Assembly (NCBI RefSeq): GCF_001953745.1
Contig: NZ_LWLN01000002.1
Coordinates: forward strand, 310,001-374,000
Reading direction: 5' to 3'
From: Natrinema saccharevitans
GTDB lineage: Archaea > Halobacteriota > Halobacteria > Halobacteriales > Natrialbaceae
DNA length: 64,000 nucleotides
The translations under genes and the position numbers were made by a program. Shown piece after piece: positions 4,380-26,008 of this stretch (positions are counted from its first letter, which is position 1; each line of letters opens with the position of its first letter). Below the pieces are notes generated by a model. It was not told the DNA's origin. It made no database searches and was given only the letters and a program-made list of their open reading frames with translations.

Positions 4380-4729
4380 AACGCGACGTCGTCGTGTTAC
4401 TGACTCGAGCACCGTACGGGCGCGTGCACGTCCCGGAGGGTTTGCGGGCGGCGCGGGGCGTCGCCGCGGGATTCGACCAGCACGACGTCACAGTCGTCTT
4501 CACGGAAGACGGCACGTATGCCGCCCGAAGCGACGTCGACCGAGACGCGTTGAACATGCCGGGGCACGTCGCCGATCTGCGTGAACAGAACGGAGCGATG
4601 ATCGTCGACGCCGCCGCCATGACGGAGCGGGGTATCTCCGCCGACGAGATCGCTGACGACGTGACCGTTCGCGCCGGCGACGAGGTTTCGGCGCGCATTC
4701 GAGACGCCGATTGCGTTCTGGACTTCTAA
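4376..4729 (+). CDS. DsrF/TusC-like protein
   Basis: A 117-residue DsrE/F-fold protein (N-terminus 'VVVLLTRAPYGRVHV') overlapping the previous gene by four bases. Only one cysteine is visible, in the C-terminal 'DADCVLDF'. This fits the subunits of DsrEFH/TusBCD hexamers that are structural rather than the main persulfide carrier. It probably forms a heterohexamer with the products of the genes on either side. Family assignment rests on length, fold-like alternation of hydrophobic strands and the three-gene arrangement. Confidence 0.72.
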   Translation: MKRDVVVLLTRAPYGRVHVPEGLRAARGVAAGFDQHDVTVVFTEDGTYAARSDVDRDALNMPGHVADLREQNGAMIVDAAAMTERGISADEIADDVTVRAGDEVSARIRDADCVLDF

Positions 4730-4731
4730 CC

Positions 4732-4977
4732 ATGCTATACCTGATAGACGAACCCATGGCTGATATCGGACTTCGAACTGCAGCGGACGACCCGGACGCA
4801 TGCGTCGTCCTCATACAGGATGGTGTGTTCCTGTCTCCCGAACTCGACGCGGACCTCTACGCCGTCGAGAAAGACGCCGCCGTCCGCGGCGTCGACCTCC
4901 CCGAGGGAATCGAGGAGATCACGTACGACGGTTTGATAGACCTGATAGTCGAGAACGAGGTGAAAAACTTCGTATGA
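4732..4977 (+). CDS. DsrH/TusB-like protein
   Basis: An 81-residue protein starting at ATG 4732, two bases after the preceding stop. A TTG at 4711 would overlap the upstream gene and is less likely. The pattern 'MLYLIDEP', then 'CVVLIQDGVFL', then 'VDLPEGIEEITYDGLIDLI' is typical of DsrH/TusB, the smallest member of the DsrEFH trio. It overlaps the downstream XdhC-YqeB start by four bases (ATGA), which ties the sulfur-relay trio to cofactor maturation. Confidence 0.75.
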   Translation: MLYLIDEPMADIGLRTAADDPDACVVLIQDGVFLSPELDADLYAVEKDAAVRGVDLPEGIEEITYDGLIDLIVENEVKNFV

Positions 4978-6567: not shown

Positions 6568-7605
6568 CTACTGTTGGTCGCGCCGAATCGGTTCTATCGT
6601 CGGATCACGGAGCGAAACACCGCTGCCGTCGGTGACGCGTCCGATCTGACGGTAGAAGACATCAGCGTCGTCGAACCGTGTTTCGAGCGTGGTCGTCTGC
6701 GACTCGGGGACCGAAAGGAGCAAGCCGCCGCTGGTCTCTGCGCTCTCGCCGTCCTCGAGGCCGTATCCGAACAGCCTCGAGAGTCCGTCGGTACCGTCGA
6801 TAATCGGTATCCGTGTCACTTCGATCCTCACGTCAGCGTTCTCGGCGAGGACCTGTGCCTGTCCGCCGAGACCGAACCCAGTTATATCGGTTGCCGCAGT
6901 CGCGATGTCGCGACTGGCCATCGCAGCGTCGCGGTTCGGGGTTGCCATCCAGGCGAGCGCTTCGTCGCCGATCGTCTGCACGGACCGGCCCGCGGCTTCC
7001 GCGACGACCTCGGCGAACTCGTCGTCCGAAACGCGCAGTCCGCCCATCGCCGACTGCGTTCCCAGCGGCTTCGTGAGGTAGAGGCGGTCACCGGCCGTCG
7101 CTCCCTGTGATGTCAACAGCGCCTCGGGCGGTGCGGTCGCGGAGACGGCACCGCCGGCGAACGGCCACGGGCTGAGTATCGTGTGGCCGCCAGCGATCAC
7201 GCCGCCCATGTTGTCGATCGCATCGGCGATACCGGTCAGGATCATCGGGGCGGTGTCCGTCAGTTCCCGAGGGAGACCGAGGACGACAAGGCAGTCGAGA
7301 TTGTCGGCGGCTCCCGTCGTGAAGGCGTCGCTCGCTGCGTTACACGCTGCGACGCGGCCGAAGTCGTAGGGGTCGTCGATGATCGGCGTGAAGAAATCGA
7401 CCGTCGAAACGAGCGCCAGATCGTCGGTCAGGCGCCGTGCGGCCGCGTCCTCGCCGACGCCGAACAGCAGTTCGTCTCGGGACTCGGTCAGCTCTGCCTC
7501 CCGAAGGAGATTCTCGAGGTCGCTCTGGCCCACCTTGCAGGAACAGCCATGGAGGTCGGCGTACTCGGTAAGCTTGACGGCAGTGTCGGCGGATCGATCG
7601 GTCAT
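6568..7605 (-). CDS. selD: Selenide, water dikinase (selenophosphate synthase)
   Basis: 345 residues. The enzyme makes selenophosphate from selenide and ATP. The N-terminal active-site segment 'HGCSCKVG' (Cys21, Cys23, Lys24) corresponds to the catalytic Cys and Lys of bacterial SelD. The ATP-binding 'GVGEDAA', 'VDFFTPIIDDPYDFG' and 'GGHTI' segments of the PurM-like fold follow. ATG 7605 is chosen; a TTG at 7608 abuts the tusA stop. It is co-directional and contiguous with the TusA-like gene (no gap beyond the stop), so the two form an operon. No selenocysteine-decoding genes are in the window, and the neighbours yqeB, yqeC and mocA point to the orphan-SelD role in labile selenium incorporation at molybdenum hydroxylases. 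Confidence 0.95.
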   Translation of the reverse strand: MTDRSADTAVKLTEYADLHGCSCKVGQSDLENLLREAELTESRDELLFGVGEDAAARRLTDDLALVSTVDFFTPIIDDPYDFGRVAACNAASDAFTTGAADNLDCLVVLGLPRELTDTAPMILTGIADAIDNMGGVIAGGHTILSPWPFAGGAVSATAPPEALLTSQGATAGDRLYLTKPLGTQSAMGGLRVSDDEFAEVVAEAAGRSVQTIGDEALAWMATPNRDAAMASRDIATAATDITGFGLGGQAQVLAENADVRIEVTRIPIIDGTDGLSRLFGYGLEDGESAETSGGLLLSVPESQTTTLETRFDDADVFYRQIGRVTDGSGVSLRDPTIEPIRRDQQ

Positions 7606-7608
7606 CAA

Positions 7609-7857: not shown

Positions 7858-7963
7858 ACGCCGACGTATGTGAGTGGATCGCAAAACAGTATCGGCTCGA
7901 TTCACCCCGCCGCTCGCACTCTATGAGGCAAACCTATTTTCGCTCCCGTCGCACAGTGACGGT

Positions 7964-8725
7964 ATGCAACTGTCGACCGCGCTCGGTCTCGGCGACCGAG
8001 CGCTCGTCGCGTTCGTCGGTGCCGGCGGGAAGAAGACCGCCATGCACCGACTCGCGATAGAGGGGCCCGAGCGGGGGTTGGACGTCGGGTTTACGACGAC
8101 GACACAGATGCCGCCACCCGATCTACCGCTAACGGTCACGAACGCCGAGCGACTGCCGGAGGCGCTTCTCGAAACTGAGCCATCGGTCGCGTTCGCGAGC
8201 CAATGGGTCTCCGACCCCGAACGGGTCGACCGAAAAGTTCGCGGCTTCGATCCGGAGCCGCTAACGTCGGTTCTCGACCGTGGGTTCGTCGACTGGCTCC
8301 TCGTCAAAGCCGACGGCGCTCGACGGCGGGAGTTCAAGGCCCCCGATACCAACGAGCCGGTCGTCCCCGACGAGGCGACCCACGTCGTCCCCGTGGCCTC
8401 CGTGCGTGCCGTCGGCGAACCGCTTTCGGAGACCGTCGTTCACCGTCCCGAACGCGTCGCCGCGATCGCCGACCTCTCCGTCGGGGACACGATCATGCCC
8501 GAAACGATCGGCACCGTGCTCGCCAGCCCCCGCGGAGGACTCCAGCACGTGCCGGACGATGCAGCTGTCATACCCGTGGTAAACAAGGCGGACGCACCGG
8601 CCCTCCAGGAGACGGCGCGAGCGGTACTCGAGCACGCGCTCGCGGAATCGGCTCGGTTTACCCGTGGCCTCGTGACGTCGTTCGAACGAGATGTCTGTCT
8701 TCCCGTCAAAAACGAGTCGGCGTGA
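7964..8725 (+). CDS. yqeC: YqeC: selenium-dependent molybdenum hydroxylase accessory protein
   Basis: A 253-residue protein with a P-loop-like 'VAFVGAGGKKTAMH' at residues 14-27, a central 'VKADGARRREFKAP' near 115, and 'VVNKADAP' near 206. This is the pattern of the YqeC family, whose members co-occur with SelD and YqeB in the selenium-dependent molybdenum hydroxylase trait. The biochemical activity is not established; nucleotide binding is likely. ATG 7964 is preferred because the 30 residues upstream in frame are unlike the family. It is divergent from tusA-selD (106-bp shared regulatory region) and followed by mocA 114 bp downstream. Confidence 0.85.
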   Translation: MQLSTALGLGDRALVAFVGAGGKKTAMHRLAIEGPERGLDVGFTTTTQMPPPDLPLTVTNAERLPEALLETEPSVAFASQWVSDPERVDRKVRGFDPEPLTSVLDRGFVDWLLVKADGARRREFKAPDTNEPVVPDEATHVVPVASVRAVGEPLSETVVHRPERVAAIADLSVGDTIMPETIGTVLASPRGGLQHVPDDAAVIPVVNKADAPALQETARAVLEHALAESARFTRGLVTSFERDVCLPVKNESA

Positions 8726-8839: not shown

Positions 8840-9484
8840 ATGGCAGATCGATCAGACGTGGCACGTAGTGGAGACGGATCGGATGGCGGTGATGGAGCCG
8901 ATACTATCGGCGGTGTAATCCTCGCCGCAGGGAAGGGGACCCGGTTCGAGGGAGGGAACAAACTTCTTGCGGACGTTGAGGGGACACCTATCGTGAGACG
9001 TGCGGCTGAGACGCTCTGTCAGTCGCGAGTCGACGATATCGTCGCCGTCGTCGGTCACGAGGCAGACCGTGTGGCGGCGGCTCTCGACGATCTCGATCTC
9101 TCAGTCAGGTACAACGAGAACTACGCAGCAGGACAGAGCGCGTCGGTCCGAATCGGCGCCGACGCCGCACGCGACGCAGGCTGGGACGCCGTCATCTTCA
9201 TGCTCGGAGATATGCCGTTCGTGCGTCCACCGACTGTCGACACGTTGTACACAGCGTACGCGACCGACGACGGGAGCATCGTCGTTCCAACGTACGAGGG
9301 ACGTCGTGGGAACCCCGTCCTGTTCGGTCGACAGCACTACGACACACTGTTGACCGTTTCCGGCGACCGAGGCGGCCGAGATCTCATTGAGAATCACGAA
9401 AACGCCGTGGTCGTCGACGTCGACGATCCGGGCGTGTCGAGAGACATCGATTCCCAGACGGATTTGGAGCGGTTCACCGACTGA
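8840..9484 (+). CDS. mocA: Molybdenum cofactor cytidylyltransferase (MocA-like)
   Basis: A 214-residue MobA/GlmU-type nucleotidyltransferase. After a Gly/Asp-rich 23-residue leader comes the nucleotide-binding 'VILAAGKGTRFEGGNK' (about 26-41). The metal-binding 'FMLGDMPFVRPP' follows near 120 and 'GRRGNPVLF' near 155. MocA transfers CMP to molybdopterin to form the cytosine dinucleotide cofactor used by xanthine-dehydrogenase-family enzymes. Location beside yqeC and upstream of moeA supports MocA over MobA. The GTP-preferring paralogue MobA cannot be fully excluded from motifs alone. Confidence 0.86.
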   Translation: MADRSDVARSGDGSDGGDGADTIGGVILAAGKGTRFEGGNKLLADVEGTPIVRRAAETLCQSRVDDIVAVVGHEADRVAAALDDLDLSVRYNENYAAGQSASVRIGADAARDAGWDAVIFMLGDMPFVRPPTVDTLYTAYATDDGSIVVPTYEGRRGNPVLFGRQHYDTLLTVSGDRGGRDLIENHENAVVVDVDDPGVSRDIDSQTDLERFTD

Positions 9485-10539: not shown

Positions 10540-12276
10540 TCAGGGCTCACTGACGCTATCGTCGGGAATCGACCGCCGGTCGGCATCAGGGCCCTGTTCT
10601 TCGGTGTGCTCCGACACCGTCACGTCCACGTACTTGCCGTCCGTAACGTCTACGAGGCCATTGTTTGTGAGCCGATACGTCGGAATCACCTCGAGGGCGA
10701 GGAAGGAAAGTTCCATCAGTCCGGTTTCGGCCATCCCGAGCCGCGCAGCGTGGGACTCTACGGTTTCGAACTGTTCGTAGACGGTTTCTATCGGCTCGCT
10801 CGACATCAGGCCCGCGACCGGAAGCGCGAGCGAAGCGAACTCGTCATCGACGGGATCGTACGCGACGACGCCGCCGTCTAACTCCTTGAGTTTGTTCGCG
10901 ACGGCTGCCATGGCTGTGTAATCAGCGCCGGCAACGACGCAGTTGTGCGCGTCGTGAGCGATCGTCGACCCGACAGCACCGCGGTCGAGTCCGAGTCCGT
11001 GAACGAAGCCGCGGCCGATCCCTTCCTTCCCGCCGTGTCGTTCGATGACTGCGAGCGAGAGTAGATCTTCGTTCGGCTTCGGCGTCAGAGTGCCGTCACG
11101 CACGGGAACCTCGGCTATCATAGGCTCGGTCTGGAGGCCGCCGACGGCGTCGATGACACGGACGTGCGCGCCGCGACCGTGACCGTCGGGAGCCGTGATC
11201 GCGAGGTCCGGCGCTGAGACCGAGGGGAACTCGACCGTGTCCGTCGGAATGTTGGTCGGTGAAGGAGTGTGCCCATCCTCCGTCGGATTCAGCTCACCGT
11301 CGATGAGTACGTCGTCGACGCGCCAGGAGTCCAGTTCCTCGAGCAACACGAGGTCCGCCGGTGCTCCCGGTTCTACCTTCCCGAACGGTAGATCGTAATT
11401 CTCCGCCGTATTGATCGTCGCCATCTGTACCGCCTCGACCGGATCTGCCCCTTCCTGGATCGCTTTCCGGACCGCGAAGTCGATCCCGCCTCGATCGACG
11501 ATGTCCGTGACTTCACGATCGTCCGTACAGAGTGAGAGCCGGCGAGTGTCGATCTCTTCGGTAAGCGGCAGGAGCTCGGCGAGATTCTTGCTGGAGGATC
11601 CCTCGCGCAGGTAGACGTGGAGACCGACATCGGCTTTCTCCCGAGCCTCGGCGAGCGTGATACTCTCATGGTCGTTGTCCAGATACCGTGCGGCCTCCTG
11701 GAGGTCGTCGCCCGTGACCCGTGGCATGTGACCGTCGACGGTCAGTCCGCGCTCCCGTGCGGCGCGAACCTTCGCGTGGACGTCCTTCTCCCCCGCGAGC
11801 AACCCGGGGATGTCCATTACTTCGCCGAGCGCGACGACGTTCGGTTCCTCGAGCAGGGCCGTCACCATATCGGGAGGAAGCGTTGCCCCGCCGTCTTGGA
11901 GGTCCGACGCTGGGACGCTGGAAGGGACGGTGAAGCGGGCCTTCAACGGCGTCTGTTCAGCGTCTTGGATGACTGCGCGGACGCCCGTGGCACCGATCAC
12001 GTTCGCTATTTCGTGGGGGTCGTGTACGACGCTCGTCACGCCGTTAGGAACGACCGCGTCCGCGTACTGTGGCAGCGTCACCATGCTCGACTCGACGTGC
12101 ATGTGTGCGTCGATGAGGCCGGGCGCGATGTAGTTCGCGTGGAGTTCGCGCTCGGCGGGACGTTCGTCCAGCGCAACGATGGCCCCGCCGTCTATTGCCA
12201 CGGGGCGCTCCTCCAAATTGCCGGTGTTCACGTTGACCAGCGTTCCCCGGACGAGCGTGTCGACGGACTGGGTCAC
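10540..12276 (-). CDS. ade: Adenine deaminase
   Basis: A 578-residue amidohydrolase-superfamily enzyme converting adenine to hypoxanthine and ammonia. Metal ligands are visible in 'GLIDAHMHVESSM' near residue 53, 'VDGHMPRV' near 181 and 'LCTDDREVTD' near 247. The C-terminal Ade-specific domain ('LGLDRGAVGSTIAHDAHN') is present and the length is typical. The start is GTG 12276 ('MTQSVDTLVRGTLVNV'). It supplies hypoxanthine for the xanthine-dehydrogenase-type enzyme; an NCS2 permease gene lies directly upstream on the same strand. Confidence 0.95.
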   Translation of the reverse strand: MTQSVDTLVRGTLVNVNTGNLEERPVAIDGGAIVALDERPAERELHANYIAPGLIDAHMHVESSMVTLPQYADAVVPNGVTSVVHDPHEIANVIGATGVRAVIQDAEQTPLKARFTVPSSVPASDLQDGGATLPPDMVTALLEEPNVVALGEVMDIPGLLAGEKDVHAKVRAARERGLTVDGHMPRVTGDDLQEAARYLDNDHESITLAEAREKADVGLHVYLREGSSSKNLAELLPLTEEIDTRRLSLCTDDREVTDIVDRGGIDFAVRKAIQEGADPVEAVQMATINTAENYDLPFGKVEPGAPADLVLLEELDSWRVDDVLIDGELNPTEDGHTPSPTNIPTDTVEFPSVSAPDLAITAPDGHGRGAHVRVIDAVGGLQTEPMIAEVPVRDGTLTPKPNEDLLSLAVIERHGGKEGIGRGFVHGLGLDRGAVGSTIAHDAHNCVVAGADYTAMAAVANKLKELDGGVVAYDPVDDEFASLALPVAGLMSSEPIETVYEQFETVESHAARLGMAETGLMELSFLALEVIPTYRLTNNGLVDVTDGKYVDVTVSEHTEEQGPDADRRSIPDDSVSEP

Positions 12277-12535: not shown

Positions 12536-13918
12536 TTAATCTTCGGAGGAGCCGACTGCGTCGGCCCCCAGACCCTCGTCGAGATCGCCCGTCGCCGCCT
12601 CGTCGATGTCGGTGTCCGCCTCGCGCGGAACCAGCGTATTGAGAAGGATCGCCGAAATGGCGGTCACGATTATCGCGTTCCCGAAGAAGATATTCGCCTC
12701 GTCAGGTAGCGCACTGAGCGCATCCGGCCGGACCTCGACGCCCAGTCCAGCGCCGATCGAGGTTGCGATGATAACCATGTTCCGCCGGTTCATGCGTTCG
12801 TTCAGGAAGATGAGACGAAGGCCGCTCGCCATCACCATACCGAACATGACCAACACCGCACCGCCGAGCACCGCACTCGGAATCGTCGTCACGACGGCAC
12901 TGACCTTCGGAATGAAACCGAGAACGAGCAGCACGGCCCCGCTGACGCCGACGACGTAACGACTCATGACGCCCGTGAAGTTGATGAGGCCGACGTTCTG
13001 TGAGAACGTGGTCAGCGGGAATGCGCCGAATAGTGCACCGATCGAGCTACCGATCCCGTCGACGAAGAGGCCGCCCGTCACCTCGTCTTCGTCGGGGGTG
13101 CGACCCTCGGCGGCCGTGATGCCGGAGATGTCCCCGACGGATTCGATGGCTGCCGTGATGTGTAGGGCGGTGAACGTCAGAATGGCGACCGGCTCGAAGG
13201 AGAACCCGAACCGACCAGGGACGGGAACGGCGAACCAGCTCGCGTCCGCGACCGGCGAGAAGTCGACGACCCCCATGGTGATTGCAGCGATGTACCCGAC
13301 CAGGAGGCCGAACAGGATACTCAGTATCCGCAAGGGACCATCCGTGAAAAGATTCAGGCCGACGGTGACGGCGAGGACGAGGAGCCCCAGACCCAGGTTA
13401 TGGTACGCGCCGTAGTCGGAGGCACCAGCGCCACCTGCCAGGTAATCCATTCCCACCGGAATCAGGTAGAGGCCGATGATCATAACGATGAGGCCAGTCA
13501 CCAGTGGCGGGAAGAATTTTTTGACCCGCTTGAACTGCCATCCGATCAGCACCTCTACCAGCGCCGCGATGACGATCGCGCCGAAGACGGCGTCGAGCCC
13601 GTACTGGCTCCCGATAGCTGTCGCCGCGCCGACGAACGCGAAGCTCGTACCCATAACGATGGGTAACCGGGCCCCCACGGGACCGATCGGGAACACCTGC
13701 ACGAGCGTTGCGAGTCCCGAGAACACGAGCACCATCTGTACCAGGAAGGCTGTGTCGGCCGAACCGACTCCGACCCCCCCTCCGACGATGAGCGCCACCG
13801 CCGTCGCCGGAACGATCATGGCCGCTACGTGCTGGACACCGAGAAAGAGCGCCTTGATCGCCGGTGGTTTGTCTTCCAATCCGTACGCCAGTTCGATGGA
13901 ACCGTCTCTCTCTGACAT
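12536..13918 (-). CDS. NCS2/NAT-family nucleobase (xanthine/uracil-type) permease
   Basis: A 460-residue integral membrane protein with about 12-14 predicted membrane segments. It carries the NAT signature 'SQNVGLINFTGVMSRYV' near residue 305 and the conserved acidic 'HITAAIESVGDISGI' near 245. The family imports xanthine, urate or uracil with protons or sodium. ATG 13918 is used ('MSERDGSIELAYGLEDKPP'); a further 22 in-frame residues upstream are unlike the family. An acidic C-terminal tail of about 30 residues is haloarchaeal style. Together with adenine deaminase it suggests uptake of purines for catabolism. Confidence 0.9.
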   Translation of the reverse strand: MSERDGSIELAYGLEDKPPAIKALFLGVQHVAAMIVPATAVALIVGGGVGVGSADTAFLVQMVLVFSGLATLVQVFPIGPVGARLPIVMGTSFAFVGAATAIGSQYGLDAVFGAIVIAALVEVLIGWQFKRVKKFFPPLVTGLIVMIIGLYLIPVGMDYLAGGAGASDYGAYHNLGLGLLVLAVTVGLNLFTDGPLRILSILFGLLVGYIAAITMGVVDFSPVADASWFAVPVPGRFGFSFEPVAILTFTALHITAAIESVGDISGITAAEGRTPDEDEVTGGLFVDGIGSSIGALFGAFPLTTFSQNVGLINFTGVMSRYVVGVSGAVLLVLGFIPKVSAVVTTIPSAVLGGAVLVMFGMVMASGLRLIFLNERMNRRNMVIIATSIGAGLGVEVRPDALSALPDEANIFFGNAIIVTAISAILLNTLVPREADTDIDEAATGDLDEGLGADAVGSSED

Positions 13919-13939
13919 GTGCTGTCGATTCGCATAGAC

Positions 13940-13985
13940 ATGGGTTTCGCATAAATAACTTATTAAATATATATTTTCGTACATA
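13940..13985. promoter_or_regulatory. AT-rich promoter region between purine permease and moeA
   Basis: A strongly AT-rich block (for example 'TTATTAAATATATATTTTCG', about 13959-13978) lies 20-65 bp upstream of the permease start on the minus strand. It is the best TATA candidate for that gene. A second gene, moeA, diverges 290 bp away and probably has its own promoter near 14185-14200 ('TGATAAAATACCC'). Confidence 0.45.
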
Positions 13986-14208: not shown

Positions 14209-15429
14209 ATGGCACACGACCACGAATCGATGCTATCTCGTTCCGAGGCCGTGCGAGAGGTTCTCGACGTCCGCGACCGGGCGCTGTCGAACCGCGAGCC
14301 GAGTGAATCGAGCGTTAGAGACGGTGTAGCCAAACGGTTTCTCGCAGAGTCGATAACTGCTCCCCGAGACGTTCCGCCTCACGACCACGCGACCATGGAC
14401 GGATTCGCCGTCGACGCGACCGAGTCGTACCCCCTCACAGTCAGTGACGGAGAGGTATTTCCGGAGGACGAGCCCCCGTCGCTAGCGGCCGGGGAAGCTG
14501 TCCGCATCGCCACAGGGGCACCGCTCCCAGAGCGCGCAAACGCCGTGCTCAAAATCGAGGAAGCGTCCGTCGAAGCGGGTGAACTCAGGGGGAGCAGCAT
14601 CGAACCGGGTACGTATACTTACGAACGGGGGAGCAACGTGTCTGCTGGTGACGTGCTATTTCGGTCCGGAGAGCGGATTTCCGCGAAAGATCTGATTCTG
14701 CTCAGAGACCTCGGTATCGAACGCGTCAGCGTATACGACCCCTTCTCCACAGGGTTACTGGCTACTGGATCCGAGATTCACGAGGAAAAGGCCGCTGACC
14801 TCGACTCCCCGATGCTGGCCGCGCTCGTCCGTTCGTGGGGGCACACCGCCACCATCGAGGGAACAGTTCCCGACGAATACGAGAAGACGAGGGACCGAAT
14901 CGCACAGTTGGCCGACGAACACGAGGTGATCATCACGACTGGCGGAACGAGCGTCGGCAAGAAGGACTACGTTATCCGTGCCCTGGAGGCGTTGGGCGAG
15001 GTAACGTTCCATCGCGTCCGGATTCGTCCCGGCAAACCGATCGCAGTCGCACGACTCCCCGATCACGACGCGGTCGCCTTCGCGATTCCGGGAAAGCCAG
15101 TCGGCGCGCACACGGTTGCGACACTCGTCATGCGTTCGTTCTTCGTCGGCGAGACGGAGCCGCTATCGACGATCGAGGCGACCCTCACGTGCGACGTCGG
15201 TATCGGGACGAGTGGCTTCGAGTACGCTGTGCCGGTTACGTTGGACGAAGGGGACGCCGTTCCCCTGGGCCACGTCGACTCTCCGCTCGAGGTCTACGAT
15301 GAGACGTTCGATCCTAGCGTTCTCTCCTCCAGTACGCGTGCGACGCGAGCTGACGGCATCGTCCTCGCAGAGTCCGATCTGTCGACGGGGGAGTCGGTCC
15401 GCGTGATCCCGTATTCGGTGCTCGAATAG
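14209..15429 (+). CDS. moeA: Molybdopterin molybdotransferase MoeA
   Basis: A 406-residue protein inserting molybdenum into adenylylated molybdopterin. Motifs: 'PPHDHATMDGFAVDA' near residue 56, 'IATGAPLPERANAVLKIEEA' near 100, 'LLATGSEI' near 182, 'IITTGGTSVGKKDYV' near 242 and 'FAIPGKPVGAH' near 290. Canonical MoeA has 'PGNPVS' at that last position, so PGKPVG is a variant. Order and length match archaeal MoeA. Its presence within the Mo-hydroxylase island, besides any housekeeping copy, suggests a dedicated enzyme. Confidence 0.9.
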   Translation: MAHDHESMLSRSEAVREVLDVRDRALSNREPSESSVRDGVAKRFLAESITAPRDVPPHDHATMDGFAVDATESYPLTVSDGEVFPEDEPPSLAAGEAVRIATGAPLPERANAVLKIEEASVEAGELRGSSIEPGTYTYERGSNVSAGDVLFRSGERISAKDLILLRDLGIERVSVYDPFSTGLLATGSEIHEEKAADLDSPMLAALVRSWGHTATIEGTVPDEYEKTRDRIAQLADEHEVIITTGGTSVGKKDYVIRALEALGEVTFHRVRIRPGKPIAVARLPDHDAVAFAIPGKPVGAHTVATLVMRSFFVGETEPLSTIEATLTCDVGIGTSGFEYAVPVTLDEGDAVPLGHVDSPLEVYDETFDPSVLSSSTRATRADGIVLAESDLSTGESVRVIPYSVLE

Positions 15430-16878: not shown

Positions 16879-18270
16879 CTATCCGATCACACCTCCGGAG
16901 GTAACATAGAAATAGAGGACGAACGCTCCTGCGAGCACCCACTGTGCCGTGTGGATGTCTTGGTGGTCCCCTTGGGCCGTTTTGACGATCGGGTAACTGA
17001 TGATCCCCGCGGCGATACCGTTGGCGATCGACGCCGTTAGCGGCATCATCACCATCGTCAAGCCACCCGGGATCAGCCAATCGGACTGTTCCCAGTTCAC
17101 TTCGGTGATTCCTTCGAGCATGATCAGACCGACGACGACCAACGCTAAGTACGACGCGTACGTCGGAATGGCAGCAACGAGGGGTATCGCGACGAGCGAG
17201 AGCAGGAACAGGAGGCTGACGATGAGAGCGGTCATCCCGGTCCGACCTCCCTCTTCGATCCCCGTGGAACTCTCGACGTAGGTCGTGACAGTCGTCGTTC
17301 CGACTATCGCTCCGAAGGTCGTCGCGATCGCGTCCGCCATCAGCGGCTTCTCCATCTCCGGCAGGTTCCCGTCGTCGTCCAGAAAGCCGCCGAACTGCGA
17401 GACGCCGATGAGCGTTCCGGCCGTATCGAAGAAGTCCACGAAGAAGAACGTGAATACGACGATCGCAAATGTCACTGGTTCGATGTTCTGGAACCCTTGC
17501 AGGAACGAACCGACCAGCGGCGTAATATCGTAGTGTGGTTCGGGAACGGTCCCAGGGGTGAGGAGACCATCGTTGACCACGCCGGCGATCGTCAGCCCCC
17601 ACCCGGCAAAGGCCGTGGTGAGGATACCGATGATAATCGAACCGGTCACGCCACGCGAATAAAGGATGAGCGTGAACGCCAGGCCCACGAGGGAGAGGAT
17701 AGCGACCGGATCGGAGGCGACGTTCCCCAAGGTAACTAACGTCGAATCGTGTGCGGTCGCGACGTTCATCTCGATGAGCCCCAACAGCAGGAGGAACAGT
17801 CCGATACCGGCACCAACGGCGAACTTGACCGGTTTCGGGAAAAATTCGATGATGTACCGTCGCGCGCCGACCGAGGACATCGCCATGAAAATGACCCCCT
17901 CGACGAACACCGCCGCGAGCGCGGTTTGCCACGGGACACCGAGCGTGATGACGACGGTGAACGCGAAGTACGCATTGAGCCCCATTCCAGGTGCGAGACC
18001 GAACGGGCGGTTAGCGTAGAGGGCCATGACGGCCGTCCCCACCACTGCTGCGAGGATCGTCGTAATTGCGATCATCTGGAACACTTCTCCGTCGGAGTAG
18101 CCGTCGATACTGATCGCTTCCGAGAGGATCACCGGATTGATGACGATGATGTACGACATCGTCAGAAACGTCGTTATCCCGGCGATCACCTCTGTTTTCG
18201 TGTCGGTACCGTACTCTTCGTAGCCGAAGAAGGATGCCACCTTCGACTGCCCCTCGTTAGACTTTGACAC
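16879..18270 (-). CDS. AzgA-type NCS2 purine permease (adenine/hypoxanthine/guanine)
   Basis: A 463-residue membrane protein if read from GTG 18270, which gives a standard family N-terminus ('FFGYEEYGTDTKTEVIAGI'). A TTG at 18327 would add 19 residues. Family motifs are 'MGLNAYFAFTVV' near residue 100, 'FVDFFDTAGTLIGVSQ' near 268, 'TYVESSTGIEEGGRTGMTA' near 325 and an NG-rich 'ASIANGIAAG' near 425. AzgA-type NCS2 proteins import adenine, guanine or hypoxanthine with protons. It complements the xanthine/uracil-type permease at 12536-13918 and the deaminases in the same island. Confidence 0.9.
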   Translation of the reverse strand: MSKSNEGQSKVASFFGYEEYGTDTKTEVIAGITTFLTMSYIIVINPVILSEAISIDGYSDGEVFQMIAITTILAAVVGTAVMALYANRPFGLAPGMGLNAYFAFTVVITLGVPWQTALAAVFVEGVIFMAMSSVGARRYIIEFFPKPVKFAVGAGIGLFLLLLGLIEMNVATAHDSTLVTLGNVASDPVAILSLVGLAFTLILYSRGVTGSIIIGILTTAFAGWGLTIAGVVNDGLLTPGTVPEPHYDITPLVGSFLQGFQNIEPVTFAIVVFTFFFVDFFDTAGTLIGVSQFGGFLDDDGNLPEMEKPLMADAIATTFGAIVGTTTVTTYVESSTGIEEGGRTGMTALIVSLLFLLSLVAIPLVAAIPTYASYLALVVVGLIMLEGITEVNWEQSDWLIPGGLTMVMMPLTASIANGIAAGIISYPIVKTAQGDHQDIHTAQWVLAGAFVLYFYVTSGGVIG

Positions 18271-18472
18271 ACGTGGGGATGGTGTGGTACGATTTGATAG
18301 TACTTCCGGATAACAGACATAGTCCAACGGACAATCGGACTCATCTCAGAGACTCCAATTTGCCAAATCTGTGTGCCGAATGGGCCGCGGTCGCGAATCG
18401 TGTCGGGAGCGATCCGACAGCAAAACGCGGATATTGATGGTGTCGCACCGGTAACTGGAAAAGAGAATCGAC

Positions 18473-19111
18473 ATGCGAGTCATCGTACCCTTCGACGCTC
18501 GAGGCCCCAAAACGAGGTTATCGACGCTCCTCGATTACGACGACCGGAACGAGTTTGCGCGAGCGATGTTGCGAGACGTCGTTTCCGTCGTTCAGGATAC
18601 CGGCAGAGACCCACTCGTCCTCTCTTCGGCGCCGATCGAGTTCGAGAACTGTCCCGTGCTCGTCGACGAACGGTCGCTTTCGCGTGCCGTCAACGAACGT
18701 CTTCGTGCTGCTTCGTCGGCCGTCGCAGTCGTCATGGCCGATCTGCCGTTGATTACGGACGCGGCGCTCGAGCGTTTGCTCACCAGAGAGGAGGACGTCG
18801 TGCTCGCGCGCGGAATCGGGGGTGGGACGAACGCGCTCGTTTCCCGTACGACTGACTTCGCGGTCGATTATCACGGCACCTCTTACCTCGACCATCGGTC
18901 CACAGCGCTCGAAATCGGGGCCACGCTGGCGGAGATCGATTCGTACCGACTCGCAGTAGACATCGATGAACCGGACGATCTCGTGGAAGTACTGCTTCAC
19001 GGGGAGAGTCGTGCGACCCAGTGGCTGCGCGATCGGGGCTTCCGACTCGCCTCAGGTACCGGACGGACCACCGTTCGGCGCACAGATGTCACACACGAGC
19101 CATCCCAGTAG
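18473..19111 (+). CDS. cofC: 2-phospho-L-lactate guanylyltransferase
   Basis: A 212-residue CofC-family nucleotidyltransferase of coenzyme F420 biosynthesis. The N-terminal 'MRVIVPFDARGPKTRLS' is the nucleotide-binding segment and 'VVMADLPLI' near residue 83 the metal-binding DxP motif. 'GIGGGTNALVSR' near 117 is characteristic. Length matches archaeal CofC; the last 20 residues are a basic tail. It is not obviously connected to purine metabolism; it may be a chance neighbour or link F420 redox chemistry to the flavin-less hydroxylase. Confidence 0.88.
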   Translation: MRVIVPFDARGPKTRLSTLLDYDDRNEFARAMLRDVVSVVQDTGRDPLVLSSAPIEFENCPVLVDERSLSRAVNERLRAASSAVAVVMADLPLITDAALERLLTREEDVVLARGIGGGTNALVSRTTDFAVDYHGTSYLDHRSTALEIGATLAEIDSYRLAVDIDEPDDLVEVLLHGESRATQWLRDRGFRLASGTGRTTVRRTDVTHEPSQ

Positions 19112-19167: not shown

Positions 19168-19548
19168 ATGAAGCGAGTTATCAGTGCGAGCGATGCTCCA
19201 GAGGCAGTCGGTGCGTACAGTCAGGCGACGACCGACGGTGAGCTCGTCTTTACTGCCGGGCAGATACCGATGACGCCCGACGGAGAGTTACTCTCCGACG
19301 AATCGATCGCCGCACAGGCCGAACAGTCTCTCTCCAACATCCAGGGCGTTCTGTCGGCGGAAGGGCTGGATATGAGCGATATCCTGAAGGTCACGGTGTT
19401 TCTGGACGACATCAACGATTTCGAAGAGATGAACGATACCTACAGCGAATTCTTCGACGACGAGCCTCCCGCCCGCAGTGCCGTGGAGGTCGCAAATCTC
19501 CCCAAAGGAGTCGGTGTCGAAATTGAAGCAATCGCGTCGAGCGAGTGA
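19168..19548 (+). CDS. ridA: RidA-family reactive imine deaminase
   Basis: A 126-residue trimeric RidA/YjgF protein hydrolysing reactive 2-imino intermediates. Visible are 'APEAVGAYSQAT' near the N-terminus, 'GQIPMTPDGEL' near 31, the conserved Arg in 'PPARSAVEVANLPKGVGVE' near 104, and the C-terminal 'EIEAIA'. RidA paralogues are common in purine and pyrimidine catabolic clusters, and this copy sits between permease and deaminase genes. Confidence 0.93.
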   Translation: MKRVISASDAPEAVGAYSQATTDGELVFTAGQIPMTPDGELLSDESIAAQAEQSLSNIQGVLSAEGLDMSDILKVTVFLDDINDFEEMNDTYSEFFDDEPPARSAVEVANLPKGVGVEIEAIASSE

Positions 19549-19618: not shown

Positions 19619-19855
19619 TCACGTTTTCGCTGCACTGGGCACACGAATTCGAAGCGCAAACTCCGCATCAGCGTCCGTCGTGGATGTCGCTGCGACGCTG
19701 TACCCGTGTTTGTGACAGGAGCGGCGGATGCTACGCTCTGCCGGTGGATAGTCCCCGATGACCGTGAGCTCGTTACCGGGCTCGAGTTCCTCCAGACATC
19801 GTCTCACGATGAGCACCGTCTGGGGACACACTGTGCCACTCACGTCGATCTCCAT
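19619..19855 (-). CDS. Second TusA/SirA-family sulfurtransferase
   Basis: A 78-residue TusA-fold protein from ATG 19855. The active-site region reads 'IDVSGTVCPQTVLIV' (CPxT instead of CPxP). A later 'GDYPPAERSIRRSCHKHG' matches the same region of the selD-linked paralogue (7609-7857), including one of its extra cysteines. The two proteins therefore form a subfamily distinct from housekeeping TusA. Its isolated position on the minus strand, downstream of ridA, gives no operon partner. Confidence 0.85.
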   Translation of the reverse strand: MEIDVSGTVCPQTVLIVRRCLEELEPGNELTVIGDYPPAERSIRRSCHKHGYSVAATSTTDADAEFALRIRVPSAAKT

Positions 19856-19991
19856 ATGACACGACAGCGTACGCACGTCCATAACATTGTCCCACTGCCA
19901 AAAGGCACGACGCAGCAAATCGGTTGTCCACCTGGGCCTGCCTCCGGAAGATTGCGGTCAGAGCAAACTATTCGTACTCCTCCCGAAATAA

Positions 19992-20890
19992 ATGGGACTC
20001 GTGAACACTGCTAAAACGAGACGAGCGGTTCTCGGAGTGGTTGGTGCTGGTCTCGCCGGTGGCTGCCTCCAAAGCGAACGGCGCTCCCAGACTCTCACTA
20101 TGGGCGTCATTCCGGCCGTCGATCCCGAACGGCTATCGAACAAAATACCGAGCTCGCCGCGTATCTGGAGTCCGAACTGGACGCGTCTGTCGATCTGCGC
20201 ACGACGACGGACTACGCCGGCTTCGTCCAGGCGATGACGGCCGAGCAGGTCGATCTCGGCTACTTCGGGGGTGTCTCCTATATCCTCGCTCACCATCGAG
20301 CGAACGCGAAACCGATCGTCGTCGGGAGCAAAAGCGGGATGACCGATTGGCACTCCGTCTTCATCGCTCACGAGTCGACCGCGGTCTCCTCGATAGATGA
20401 CCTGAAGCGGTCCGCAGATTCGTTGGACCTAGCTTTCGGCGACCCCCTCAGTACGAGCGGCACGGTGATGCCGGCCTATTATTTTCGACGCCGTCACGAC
20501 CTGTTTCCGGCTCGGGCGTTCAAATCTCTCACTCACGTCGAGGCCTACGATGCCGTCGCGGGAACGGTTTCTGGTGGCAACACCAGTGTCGGAGCGCTCA
20601 ATGCCCGTATTTACAACCGACTCGTCGAGACTCGGTCCGTCGATGAGACTGTCATCGAAGTCTGGCGAACGCCCGGGTTCGCCGACTATCCCTGGGCAGT
20701 CAACGGCACCCTGGAAGAGGAGACTGTTGCAGCGATTCGCGACGCTTTCATCGGTCTCGACGAGAAAGAAAGTGAGACTACATTAGACCAACAAAACGTC
20801 GACAAGTACGTCACAACTGGCCACGAAGAATTCGGGGAATTAGGTGACGCAGTCAGAATGGTGGTCATTTTGAACGATGATGATGACTGA
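19992..20890 (+). pseudogene. Phosphonate-type ABC substrate-binding lipoprotein, frameshifted
   Basis: The N-terminus (19992 onward) has a Tat-like 'KTRRAVLGVVGAGLAGGC' signal with lipobox, then 'MGVIPAVDPERLSN'. A frameshift near 20139-20147 (around the run AACAAAA) moves the continuing homology to another frame. There it reads through 'ELAAYLESELDASVDLRT', 'VDLGYFGGVSYILAHHRA' and on to the stop at 20890. This is the PhnD/SsuA-like phosphate-phosphonate binding fold. The next gene is a defective ATPase and no permease follows, so the locus is decaying. A sequencing error could mimic the frameshift but not the defects next door. Confidence 0.75.
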
Positions 20891-21560
20891 GCGACACCAC
20901 GAGTTGCGATTCGACGGATTGACCAAAACGTTCGACGGTGACCGTCCCCGTTCCGCAGACGTGGCACATGCATATCCCGGTGGCACGCTCGTCGACCGGC
21001 GGACTGCGTTGGCCAACGTGCTCGTCGGCAGTAGTTTGTCTCGTTCCTGGTGGCGGGGCCTGCTCGAACCGCTCGCGCCCCGAAATCCAGCCCGAGCACT
21101 CGAGTTGCTCGACCGCGTCGGACTCGATGGGAAGGCCGACGCACGAACTGACACGCTCAGTGCGGGCGAACGCCAGCGAGTAGCGTTCGCTCGAGCGCTG
21201 ATGCAGGACGCACCCGTTATCGTCGCGGACGAACCGACAGCCAACCTCGATCCGTCGTCGAGCATCACTGTCCTCGACGTCCTCGAGGACGTTGCGGGGA
21301 AACGGATGTTGATTACCGTCCTCCACGACATGGACCTCGCGGTCGAGCACTACGATCGAATCGTCGGAATCGTCGACGGCTCAGTTCGGTTCGATCGCCC
21401 CGCGGAGAGCATTACGGCTGCCGAGTTAGAGGAGTTGTCCGACCGTGACGATGCAGACGCATCGGCAGTGGCCGCTACCGAAAGTCGGCCGCCTCGAGAC
21501 GCGGATGCGACGACAGAGGTCGCGGAGAATCGGTACAGTCCAGCACGACACTGGAAATGA
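20877..21560 (+). pseudogene. PhnC-like ABC ATPase lacking Walker A (internal deletion)
   Basis: The frame is open (227 residues) but the protein is not functional as an ATPase. The first 14 residues ('LRFDGLTKTFDGD') match the PhnC start. The Walker A segment and the following 30-40 residues are absent, and the text resumes near the Q-loop ('GGTLVDRRTALANVLVG'). The signature motif 'TLSAGERQRVAFARAL' and Walker B 'PVIVADEPTANLD' remain. It overlaps the frameshifted binding-protein gene by 14 bp. A phnE-type permease is missing after it. Confidence 0.72.
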
Positions 21561-21695: not shown

Positions 21696-23024
21696 TCACG
21701 GTTTGACTTCCTGTGCCGCCTCGCGGTGAGACTCGAGTGAGAGTCCGACATCGTCTGCCCGTTGCCGAATCGCTTCTGCGTCGACGGTCGTCACGTCGCC
21801 GTCTTCGACGAGTACGTCCCCGTCGACCATCGTGAACACCACGTCTTCCCCGTGGGCGCCGAACACGAGGTGAGAGAGAACGTCGTGCAACGGCGTTGCA
21901 CGTGTGATGTCCGTCCGGACACCCACGATATCGGCACGCCACCCTTCGCGAATCGCTCCTAGCCGGTCGAAGCCGGCCGCTTTCGCGCCGTTAATCGTGG
22001 CCATTTCGAATATTTCACTGGCTGGGGTTGCGGTGGGGTCGAGTCGATCCACTTTCTGCAGGAGGCTCGCCTGTCGCATTTCGGTGAACGGATCGAGGGT
22101 GTTGTTACAGGGGGGCCCGTCATTGCCGAGCGCGACGTTGATATCTCGGTCGAGGTAGTCCCAGACAGGGGCGATGCCGCTCGCGAGTTTCATATTCGAG
22201 GACGGACAGTGGGTGACGTGAGTCCCCGTTTCCTCGAGGACCTGTCGTTCGCTTTCGTCCGTCCAGACACAGTGGGCGAGGACGACATCGTCACCCGTGA
22301 GACCGACCTCGTCTAACCAGTGAATATTCCGCATTCCTGTATCTTCCTTGACGGTCTCGATTTCACTCTGGTTCTCGCTCGCGTGCGTATGGATTCTGAC
22401 TCCCTCGTACGTATCCGCAAGTTCGCGAGCTCCGCGCAGACACTCTTCGGTACAGGATACGGCGAACCGCGGAGTGACGGCATACCGAATGCGGTCGTCG
22501 AACGAACCGTGGTACTTCTCGATGAGACGTTCCGTCTCTGTCAGTGCGGCCGTCGTCTCTTCCAAAAGCCCCTTGGGTGAGCGGCGATCCATCAGTACTT
22601 TGCCGAGGACACCCCGAATGCCGATCTCTCCCGCGGCCTCGAACGCCTCGTCCGCGTGATCGACTGAGAGATGATCCACACACGTCGTCGTTCCGCTTTC
22701 GATCATCTCGAGGTATCCGAGCTTTGCGGCCACTTCCATCTCCTCGGCCGAAAGCGACGCTTCCATCGGTAGAATGTAGTCGAACAACCAGTCGAGGAGT
22801 TCCGTATCGTCGGCGATTCCACGACCGAGACTCTGTACGGAGTGAATATGACCCCCGACGAGGCCGGGCAAAATAACGTCGTACTCCTGGCTTTCGTGAT
22901 CGGGATACTGATCAACGATATCATCTCGGTCTCCGACGCGCTCGATGACTGAATCCTCCACGAGGACGGCCCCATCTCGAATGATGGTACCGGAGTCGAC
23001 GATTACCGTTCCAGTTATTAACAT
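21696..23024 (-). CDS. ATZ/TRZ-type amidohydrolase, probable guanine deaminase
   Basis: A 442-residue metal-dependent deaminase. Metal and substrate motifs: 'PGLVGGHIHSVQSLGRG' near residue 53, 'VRIHTHASENQSEIE' near 208, 'VVLAHCVWTD' near 245 and 'LGNDGPPCNNTLDPFTEMR' near 297. This last pattern occurs in guanine/8-oxoguanine deaminases and 5-methylthioadenosine deaminases of the TrzN/SsnA group. Clustering with adenine deaminase, purine permeases and a xanthine-dehydrogenase-type enzyme favours guanine to xanthine. An SsnA-like role cannot be excluded. ATG 23024 is used. Confidence 0.82.
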   Translation of the reverse strand: MLITGTVIVDSGTIIRDGAVLVEDSVIERVGDRDDIVDQYPDHESQEYDVILPGLVGGHIHSVQSLGRGIADDTELLDWLFDYILPMEASLSAEEMEVAAKLGYLEMIESGTTTCVDHLSVDHADEAFEAAGEIGIRGVLGKVLMDRRSPKGLLEETTAALTETERLIEKYHGSFDDRIRYAVTPRFAVSCTEECLRGARELADTYEGVRIHTHASENQSEIETVKEDTGMRNIHWLDEVGLTGDDVVLAHCVWTDESERQVLEETGTHVTHCPSSNMKLASGIAPVWDYLDRDINVALGNDGPPCNNTLDPFTEMRQASLLQKVDRLDPTATPASEIFEMATINGAKAAGFDRLGAIREGWRADIVGVRTDITRATPLHDVLSHLVFGAHGEDVVFTMVDGDVLVEDGDVTTVDAEAIRQRADDVGLSLESHREAAQEVKP

Positions 23025-23449: not shown

Positions 23450-23632
23450 TCAGTTTTCGGCCCGCTGTCGGGTTATATATCCCGCAATCCTGTTCCGAAC
23501 CCGTGTAGACCCGACATTGGTCATCTTTGTCACTGCTTTATTATTCGTATTGAAATCGTTCGTGAATGATTCGGGGTGTTGGCTTAACAGTCGGTCTCCG
23601 ATGCTGATAATGTCTTCCGGTTCTGCCGTCAT
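23450..23632 (-). CDS. eS17-like small protein (paralogue of ribosomal protein S17e), copy 1
   Basis: 60 residues. The C-terminal half 'TNVGSTRVRNRIAGYITRQR' and the preceding 'LLSQHPESFTNDFNTNNKAV' match the archaeal/eukaryotic ribosomal protein eS17 pattern (...YPxxFxxDFExNK...RNRIAGYxTR). Typical eS17 proteins begin with a basic segment; this one begins with acidic 'MTAEPEDIISIGD', so rRNA contacts would differ. A second paralogue lies about 600 bp away on the other strand. It is probably an accessory or condition-specific ribosome-associated protein rather than the housekeeping gene; function is inferred from family only. Confidence 0.75.
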   Translation of the reverse strand: MTAEPEDIISIGDRLLSQHPESFTNDFNTNNKAVTKMTNVGSTRVRNRIAGYITRQRAEN

Positions 23633-23795
23633 CAGTTATCGGCTTTGTTCATTTTCTGCTTAAGTGCTCTGATTGAACGGGTCTCTTACTGGTTCTCTGT
23701 CGAGAATTGCCACATGCTAACCGGTCGGGATCGGGCTTGCATAACTCTTCTCAGGATAGTTTTACTAGTTGACTAAGGGAAGTCAGCGAGGACCG

Positions 23796-24038
23796 TTAAG
23801 CCGAAACCGAACTGCTAGCTCTGTGGTCAGTGAACTGAACATCGTAGTACTCGATAAATTTGATCAGGTCGTACTGTACGAGTTCCGTAGCGATTTCGGG
23901 ATCAACGCCGGCTGTGATTTCGATCTCGATCGTCCGTAGGAGGCAGTCTTTCGCTCGTTCCGATAGTTCGTCAAAGTGGCAAACGCGAGTCTGTTCAGAG
24001 GGCGTTTCTCTGCTAGTTATCGTGAGGCTTTGTGCCAT
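23796..24038 (-). CDS. Small hypothetical protein between the two eS17-like genes
   Basis: 80 residues from ATG 24038, which has short in-frame alternatives upstream. The product is acidic: 'VCHFDELSERAKDCLLRTIE', then 'VDPEIATELVQYDLIKFIEY'. No family recognised. The pattern resembles short haloarchaeal proteins made of one helical bundle. It is flanked by the two eS17 paralogues, so it may belong to the same small module. Confidence 0.5.
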   Translation of the reverse strand: MAQSLTITSRETPSEQTRVCHFDELSERAKDCLLRTIEIEITAGVDPEIATELVQYDLIKFIEYYDVQFTDHRASSSVSA

Positions 24039-24244
24039 AGTGATCGCTCTCAACTCACCTTCTGGCCAGAGGATAATTAATATACCGGCGACACATGGCA
24101 TCCTGATAATCAACAATCACTGCCCGGGGAGAATGGACTCCACAATCGGTATCACGACCGCGTTTGGTCGCAGAGTCAATTTGCTAGCCACTACTAACAC
24201 AAAGTTTGCCAAAGAACTATTGTCAATGCTATCGTGCTAGCACT

Positions 24245-24433
24245 ATGTCCTCGAACGCCAACGAAATCATGTCTATCGGCGATTCGCTCATCGAACAACA
24301 TCCAAGCACTTTCACTGAAGACTTCGAGGAGAACAAGGCACATGTCGAACAACTAACCAACGTAGAAGCCAAACGGGTAAGAAATAGAATAGCTGGTTAT
24401 ATCACCAGAATGAAGAAAGATCGCAACCCGTAG
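24245..24433 (+). CDS. eS17-like small protein, copy 2
   Basis: 62 residues from ATG 24245. 'MSIGDSLIEQHPSTFTEDFE', 'NKAHVEQLTNVEAKRV' and 'RNRIAGYITRMKKD' align without gaps to copy 1 (23450-23632) and to the eS17 family. As in copy 1, the N-terminus is not basic. The nearby AT-rich upstream region ('AAAGAACTATTG', about 24211-24222) would suit a leaderless transcript. The divergence between the two copies suggests an old duplication rather than a recent one. Confidence 0.77.
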   Translation: MSSNANEIMSIGDSLIEQHPSTFTEDFEENKAHVEQLTNVEAKRVRNRIAGYITRMKKDRNP

Positions 24434-24511: not shown

Positions 24512-25139
24512 TTAGTTTGTAGAATTCTGCCAGACGGCGATGTCTTGGAGCCACGATTCTGCGGTTGGTGGTTTAGCATGACTGAAACAGTTCGAGAATG
24601 AAGAGGTTCGGCGTTTTATCTCTCAAAATATATATTCGATTGTATTCCGATTTCCCTGTTTTTCGTATCGAAATCGGAGTCCGTGCCGGCGGCGTGCTGT
24701 CTGGAGATACTATGCGCCATCGACGAGAAAAACTGCATCTTCGACATTGTGTTTCTCGCTTAATTCTCGCAGAAACTGTTCAGTTAATGCGTTCGCAGTC
24801 GTCGAAAATAGTCGTATATGGGTGACTCTGTTTGTTTCAGGTTCGACTGCAGCATACAGCCAATACTGGTGATCATCGATTTGAATCACGGTTTCGTCGA
24901 AAGCAACGTGATTCGGAGTTACGTCGGTTGCTGGCTGTAGATCGGCTTTCTGCACCCAATCGTGAACAGCCTTCCGCGATCGATCGACACCGGACCTCTC
25001 GAGTTTTCGAATGGTATTCGAAAGCGATAATCCGGCAAGATGGAGTCGAATACTAAGCTCCATCAGCCGACGCGGTGTCCGTTCTCGCTCCACAAAATCC
25101 AAATCAATCGGCTTTGGTGAATCGCTGGATAGCGACGGA
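24512..25139 (-). pseudogene. IS6-family transposase remnant with several frameshifts
   Basis: Reading right to left: an N-terminal piece without a clear start ('KPIDLDFVERERTPRRLMEL'). Next is the DDE core ('AVHDWVQKADLQPATD', 'VAFDETVIQIDDHQYWLYAA', 'FLRELSEKHNVEDAVFLVDG'), which stops at 24710. A shifted frame then gives 'RHGLRFRYEKQGNRNTIEYI', and a further shift gives 'EIKRRTSSFSNCFSHAKPPT' and the terminal 'WLQDIAVWQNSTN' before TAA at 24512. This is a full-length but dead haloarchaeal IS6-like transposase. Terminal inverted repeats were not identified. Confidence 0.82.
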
Positions 25140-25180
25140 TTCGACCGTCAGAACTAGGGAGATGAAGCGGGAAACCGCCG

Positions 25181-26008
25181 ATGTCTATGTCGAAGATTTC
25201 CCGCTTCACGAGCAAAGTCGTTCAGTTAGCTAAAAATGCTGTTGGTGGTCGAAGCGAAGTCGCCGCCCCCGAAGGGGGTGGCGGCTTCGCCGAGTATGCG
25301 GTGGTGTCGCTGCACTGTCTGCGGGTTTACTTGGAGAAGTCCTACCGGGAAGCATTGGATCTGCTGAGCGAAATGCCACAAATACTCGGGGAGATCGGCC
25401 TTAATGCGGCCGATCTTCCCGATCACTCGACGCTAGTCAAGTGGTTTGATAAGATCAAGACAACACTCTGGCGAGTGTTGCTGCGCCGAGAGGCGCAGCT
25501 GCGCAAGCGGTCACACCGCCATCGACGCGACGTTTTTCGACCGCGAAAACGCGAGCAAACACTCTGCCGCCGGACGAATTACCGCGTGCAGACGCTCAAA
25601 GTGACAGCTCTCGTCGACACAGAAAGCCAAGCCATTCTGGACGTTCACTGTACGATCAAAAAACGCCACGATACACAGCTCGGCTGGCAGGTCGCCCGCC
25701 GCAACACGGGCGACCTCGCCAGCCTCGTCGCCGACAAAGGCTATAACTGGATGAAATCACGCAAGAAACTCCGCGAAGATGGCGTGAGACCGCTGATCAA
25801 GCATCGTGAGTTCCGGCCCATCGATCACGCGTACAACGTGCGGATCGATGGGACTCGCTACCGCCAACGAGCGATGTGCGAGACCGTCTTCTCAACGATC
25901 AAGCGCACGCTCGGCAACGCCGTGCGTGCGCGAACTTAGTACGGTGAATTTCGTGAACTCATCCTGATGTGTGCGGTTCACAACATCAAGCAATCTCTGA
26001 ATCCGTGA
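25181..26008 (+). pseudogene. ISH9-like DDE transposase, inactive
   Basis: The open frame from 25181 shows the family N-terminus ('ISRFTSKVVQLAKNAVGG', 'LPDHSTLVKWFDKI') and C-terminal catalytic part ('VADKGYNWM', 'RQRAMCETVFSTIKRTLG'). Two compensating frameshifts around 25510-25565 replace the expected 'AIDATFFDRENASKH' (legible in the next frame) with an Arg-rich stretch, removing the first catalytic Asp. A TAG at 25937 (after 'AVRART') cuts off the last 23 codons, which remain readable to TGA 26006-26008. Inactive by at least these lesions. Confidence 0.85.

Follow-up and report, generated by a model that had tools for sequence, protein, structure and literature searches.

An extra, diverged form of ribosomal protein eS17 is a regular component of the selenium-dependent molybdenum hydroxylase (SDMH) island of haloarchaea, being present in 30 of 30 genomes that encode the selenophosphate synthetase SelD. 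Two such genes, here called A and B, were found in a 64,000-nucleotide stretch of the Natrinema saccharevitans genome (the window; G000:C2:310001-374000), where they lie at the edge of an SDMH/purine-catabolism island spanning positions 898 to 24433. An earlier note, made from the letters of the window, had placed two eS17 paralogues on opposite strands of a mobile region; both genes are indeed there, and the region is the metabolic island instead. The occurrence of an eS17 paralogue in every selD-positive haloarchaeon sampled, and almost nowhere else, constitutes an unexpected link between translation and selenium/purine metabolism.

The two eS17 genes and their island

The N. saccharevitans genome (3.98 Mb in three contigs) contains three loci that match the Pfam eS17 profile, PF00833, namely the housekeeping gene (63 aa; G000:C1:1702091) and, on a different contig, A and B. 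Gene A occupies 23450 to 23632 on the minus strand (60 aa, stop included) and scores 34.1 bits, and gene B occupies 24245 to 24433 on the plus strand (62 aa, taking the ATG at 24245 as start) and scores 42.9 bits, both above the gathering score of 22.8 bits. Together with the normal rps17e copy elsewhere in the genome, these matches uphold the earlier view that A and B are additional to the housekeeping protein. Against the NCBIfam eS17 equivalog model (PRK01151/NF002242; cut-off 72 bits), B lies above the threshold at 78.3 bits and A just below it at 67.5 bits. Orthologues of A were identified at twelve loci, and orthologues of B were found as well.

SelD, YqeB (TIGR03309), YqeC (TIGR03172) and Mo hydroxylase genes, whose joint presence defines the SDMH trait, stand together in the window. 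At its left end, on the plus strand, the island encodes the CoxS-type [2Fe-2S] subunit of a Mo hydroxylase (898-1452; PF01799/PF00111) and its CoxL/XdhA-type Mo-binding subunit (1449-3908; PF02738, PF20256 and PF01315; best NCBIfam match XdhA at 653 bits, below cut-off), followed by two DsrE-like proteins (4008-4379 and 4376-4729; PF02635) and an XdhC-YqeB fusion that is an SDMH marker (4800-6554; TIGR03309, 356.6 bits, cut-off 220). SelD itself is encoded on the minus strand (6568-7608; TIGR00476, 265.4 bits, cut-off 125), and the plus-strand genes for the selenium cofactor biosynthesis protein YqeC (7874-8725; TIGR03172, 181.8 bits) and a MocA-like cytidylyltransferase (8840-9484; TIGR03310, 147 bits, below cut-off) come next. 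Purine functions are represented by minus-strand genes for an adenine deaminase (10540-12276; PF13382; TIGR01178, 464.5 bits against a cut-off of 472.5), an NCS2 xanthine permease (12536-13984; TIGR03173, 447 bits, cut-off 414) and a second NCS2 permease (16879-18327; PF00860). Profile matches also identify, on the plus strand, a MoeA-like molybdotransferase (14209-15429), a CofC-like nucleotidyltransferase (18473-19111; TIGR03552, 161 bits), a RidA family protein (19168-19548; TIGR00004, 158 bits) and a PhnD/selenate-type ABC binding protein (20234-20890; PF12974; TIGR04553, 130 bits, below cut-off), and, on the minus strand, a TusA/YedF-like protein (19619-19882). Finally, a 5'-deoxyadenosine deaminase, a DadD-type amidohydrolase (21696-23024, minus strand; NF005557, 703 bits, cut-off 522), lies immediately downstream of A and is codirectional with it.

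The transporter at 19992-21560 looks degraded, because its PhnD-like gene appears to be split (probably by a frameshift near 20234, with the initial portion lying in a different frame at 19992-20237) and the adjacent ABC ATPase matches its model only from profile position 79, so that the Walker A region is absent. Relatives carry intact genes for this PhnD/ABC transporter.

The same gene set surrounds genes annotated as "30S ribosomal protein S17e" on pNG700 of H. marismortui and pHTUR01 of H. turkmenica. The former is the orphan-selD plasmid that was used in defining SDMH (Haft & Self 2008, PMC2276186; PMC2432076), and its SelD, YqeB, YqeC, MocA-like and Mo hydroxylase genes have counterparts in the window. 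Neither S17 nor a ribosomal protein is mentioned in the searched text of the two papers.

Co-occurrence with selD in haloarchaea

Matches above cut-off place selD in 30 of 391 haloarchaeal genomes. With a single paralogue profile applied to all 391, an extra eS17 was detected in 36 genomes, comprising every selD-positive genome and 6 of the 361 selD-negative ones (Fisher p 2.8e-39, a value that ignores the relatedness of genomes). The extra gene is always on the selD contig, 3.7-32.9 kb from selD in the 30 genomes. The earlier characterization of eS17 as universally single-copy consequently needs qualifying: it describes 355 of the 391 haloarchaea and fails in the rest, where the exceptions track selD. 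A Pfam search alone recovered the extra gene in 15 of the 30 selD-positive genomes; the remaining 15 belong to one genus (g33, the Haloarcula-like group), in which a protein query located a diverged copy in 15 of 15, and in none of the five selD-less genomes of that genus searched in the same way.

The co-occurrence is inflated by shared ancestry, as this one genus supplies half of the selD-positive genomes. A cruder control for relatedness is afforded by the nine genera that contain both-positive genomes, each of which also has both-negative genomes, with no contradicting genus (sign test, p 0.004). Additional plasmids follow the same pattern: selD is present on four of four that carry an A/B-type eS17 (from Haladaptatus halobius, Natrinema halophilum, N. 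caseinilyticum and N. gelatinilyticum) and on none of three that carry a housekeeping-type S17e. Two non-haloarchaeal genomes of the phylum that possess YqeB have a single eS17 each and no extra copy.

Among the six selD-negative exceptions, three (G068, G168 and G365) carry B-type genes among those for CoxSL, allantoinase, uricase or DadD. The other three (G123, G273 and G325) carry housekeeping-like duplicates with a KPxYVKK or SPDYVKK N-terminus. Such duplicates form a separate class of extra S17e without a selD link, with N-termini AIKPDYVKK or PVSPDYVKK, that includes these three (L081, L082 and L079, respectively) and a further locus, L135; duplicates of this kind are also carried by plasmids.

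The A/B pair is not obligatory, as 17 selD-positive genomes have A alone (including one case at the end of a contig) and three have B alone; a fixed heterodimer is thus not to be expected. The family as a whole is associated with the haloarchaeal SDMH/purine-catabolism island, and an A/B-type eS17 provides a genetic marker of the trait in its haloarchaeal version.

Paralogues of archaeal ribosomal proteins are rare, with 26 listed beside 5,412 primary ribosomal proteins in a 2012 census, which records plasmid-borne S17e paralogues, H. turkmenica having two and H. marismortui one (PMC3353972). These plasmid paralogues are members of the A/B family; the passages found in the census are silent on their gene context, their function and any tie to selenium. 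The bacterial Zn-ribbon paralogues treated there offer a likeness, in that diverged ribosomal protein copies are kept for a particular condition, and a difference, in that they swap forms with and without Zn ligands whereas A and B track a metabolic island (PMC3353972). A literature search on S17e, xanthine dehydrogenase and archaea, which covered few subscription journals, returned nothing, and no report of a functional link between S17e paralogues and selD or purine catabolism was found in the literature searched. The selenium link of the eS17 paralogues appears to be new, and the plasmid S17e paralogues themselves were listed in 2012.

Sequence divergence and gene layout

A- and B-type proteins align with ribosomal eS17 over its full length and share its three-helix fold, the DF..N motif and the RNRIAGY[IV]TR core. 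The helix 3 core, RNR[IV][AS]GY, is retained in 30 of 31 A/B sequences, the paralogue of H. marismortui having QTRLTRY in place of RNRIAGY. Despite this substitution, the Haloarcula copy is conserved across ten loci, with a dN/dS of about 0.07, and third codon positions account for 26 of its 34 variable sites. The predicted model of B (pLDDT 92.6) superposes on ribosome-bound archaeal eS17, mostly within 0.5-1.1 Å, a shared fold that was already to be expected from the sequence.

The acidic N-termini that the earlier note had remarked upon proved to be a consistent trait: A and B have 0-1 lysine or arginine in their first 11 residues versus 2-4 in 29 housekeeping eS17 proteins, and the KPxY[VI]K-type basic motif occurs in none of 31 A/B sequences versus 29 of 29 haloarchaeal housekeeping sequences sampled. 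Likewise, the median net charge of B proteins is -1, compared with +4 for housekeeping eS17. In a tree built on 63 columns, the A/B sequences are set apart from the housekeeping and the outgroup eS17 proteins by a branch with 100/99 support, although the branching order within A/B is unsure owing to the short alignment and several long branches. A and B thus differ from ribosomal eS17 in N-terminus, in tree position, in their non-housekeeping locus and in their tie to selD. Simple duplication of the housekeeping gene was considered and excluded by the tree branch and the N-terminus. Median dN/dS values of 0.14 for A, 0.15 for B and 0.22 for M (the gene between them) are rough, since many synonymous distances are near saturation, and indicate that A and B are under purifying selection; these ratios of about 0.14 and the recurrence of A and B in other genera mark them as more than chance reading frames.

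A conserved BRE/TATA-like core promoter precedes A on the minus strand (CAGAGCACTTAAG, 23659-23671, at about -40 to -27), and comparable conserved blocks precede B on the plus strand (CAAAGAACTATTG, 24210-24222) and M on the minus strand (TGTGTCGCCGGTAT, 24082-24095). A and B are, from their sequence, small stand-alone genes with a BRE/TATA-like promoter each. The blocks of A and B lie some 24-40 bases upstream of the start codon, a spacing that, by analogy with known haloarchaeal promoters, suggests leaderless mRNAs. An operon of A and DadD was ruled out, each having a separate promoter-like block, and a cluster-wide operator was also rejected, the M and A blocks showing no clear enrichment elsewhere in the window.

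The three-gene unit, which had been proposed as something to seek in other genomes, recurs in two layouts. In the first, A is followed by DadD, and M occupies the interval between A and B, with B pointing away from M. The second consists, consecutively, of RdfA, an archaea-specific SMC-related gene, A, a 327-aa unknown, M, B, a 270-aa unknown, MocA and MoeA. Haloarcula has a single A-type gene directly upstream of DadD.

In many islands, at twelve loci in all, RdfA (rod-determining factor) and the archaea-specific SMC-related gene either adjoin the eS17 paralogue or lie close to it; these islands also carry the two unknown conserved proteins of approximately 270 and 327 aa.

Possible roles of A, B and M

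The reading preferred here, held with moderate confidence, is that A and B belong to a neofunctionalised eS17 family whose members would serve the SDMH island specifically, in a regulatory or accessory capacity, by means of the eS17 fold that they have kept. On this view the three helices, with basic helix 3 among them, would bind RNA, a protein partner or the 30S subunit, and A and B, having lost the basic N-terminal patch, could not take the place of a normal structural eS17. Such a role would most likely consist in condition-dependent control of purine-hydroxylase gene expression. This reading is favoured by the conserved core, the lost N-terminal patch and the finding that neither the H. 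marismortui nor the H. turkmenica island contains an annotated transcription factor; it was picked partly for want of another annotated regulator. The kept RNR[IV][AS]GY of helix 3 is equally expected of a true ribosomal protein, and guilt by association proves no role, as A and B could ride along with the island.

An alternative ribosomal subunit is unlikely but the strongest of the competing proposals. Upon induction of the island, A and B would replace eS17 on the head of the 30S subunit, and the specialised ribosomes would favour island mRNAs. The retained fold and helix 3, the superposition of the B model on 30S-bound eS17, the strongly constrained core and the score of B above the equivalog cut-off are all consistent with such a substitution. 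Nevertheless, the basic motif is missing from all 31 sequences, the conserved Haloarcula copy lacks the RNRIAGY core, and B proteins have lost the positive charge of the housekeeping protein. Judged from the sequences, the uniform loss of the basic N-terminus and the altered Haloarcula core argue against a simple replacement of eS17. The ribosome-hibernation role raised in the earlier note gains nothing from these data, which do not speak against it either.

It is also conceivable, though again unlikely, that A and B work off the ribosome as accessory or maturation factors, the eS17 fold mediating protein-protein contacts with the Mo hydroxylase, with SelD or with the deaminase encoded after A. 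DadD is directly downstream of A in nine islands, including those of Haloarcula, the rest of the islands consist of enzymes and maturation factors, and the lost basic N-terminus would fit as well. However, A and DadD are 119-461 nt apart in the measured islands, with their own promoter-like blocks, and A has other neighbours in the second layout.

Another, rather improbable reading would have an eS17 variant without its N-terminal anchor dock or compete at the eS17 site of the 30S subunit and alter ribosome activity or turnover during purine catabolism, thereby coupling translation (or the release of rRNA purines) to the selenium-dependent purine hydroxylase. If true, such a variant would be a pathway-specific ribosomal-protein regulator in archaea. 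Cultured strains, Haloarcula hispanica among them, make it possible to test for pathway-specific ribosome variation or for a ribosomal fold reused as a regulator.

Very little probability attaches to the notion of a hitch-hiker, that is, an old eS17 duplicate that became trapped in a transferable island and persists for some purpose that has nothing to do with selenium or purines. In its favour, the island has a patchy distribution and is often borne on a secondary replicon. Retention in 30 of 30 genomes, over nine genera and in islands of differing layout, speaks against it, as do the purifying selection and the reappearance of such genes in purine clusters that lack selD.

The earlier note had also drawn attention to insertion sequences beside the eS17 genes. 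Transposase genes are real but confined to the right side of the pair, at 24710-25939, starting after B, and their proximity is incidental. They comprise a 130-aa transposase fragment with a weak IS240/IS6-type DDE match and a DDE_Tnp_1 transposase at the island's right edge. No insertion sequence or integrase was found to flank the unit on both sides in relatives. The proposal that these adjacent insertion sequences bear a mobile element, or a toxin-like system, directed against translation is therefore virtually untenable, as the elements stand on a single side, the corresponding position in relatives is taken by different genes, such as orc1/cdc6 in H. turkmenica, and the unit recurs beside metabolic genes instead of transposases.

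Under the preferred regulatory or accessory reading, gene M (23796-24038, minus strand), which is encoded divergently from B, may be a partner or a co-regulated gene. The suggestion that this 80-residue gene is part of the unit was a sound one, as M is conserved beside B in most islands. Members of its family occur in 218 of 391 haloarchaeal genomes, which rules M out as a strict marker; the 12 best matches are all in selD-positive genomes, and M forms an SDMH-linked subgroup within a broader family of small haloarchaeal proteins. Neither Pfam nor NCBIfam gave a match to the protein, PHROG gave no useful one, and its predicted model, with a pLDDT of only 75, has no PDB match. This unannotated, widespread family, represented by twenty loci, has the conserved motifs H.DEL...A and YD..K..YY, and some copies adjoin PadR-type regulators.
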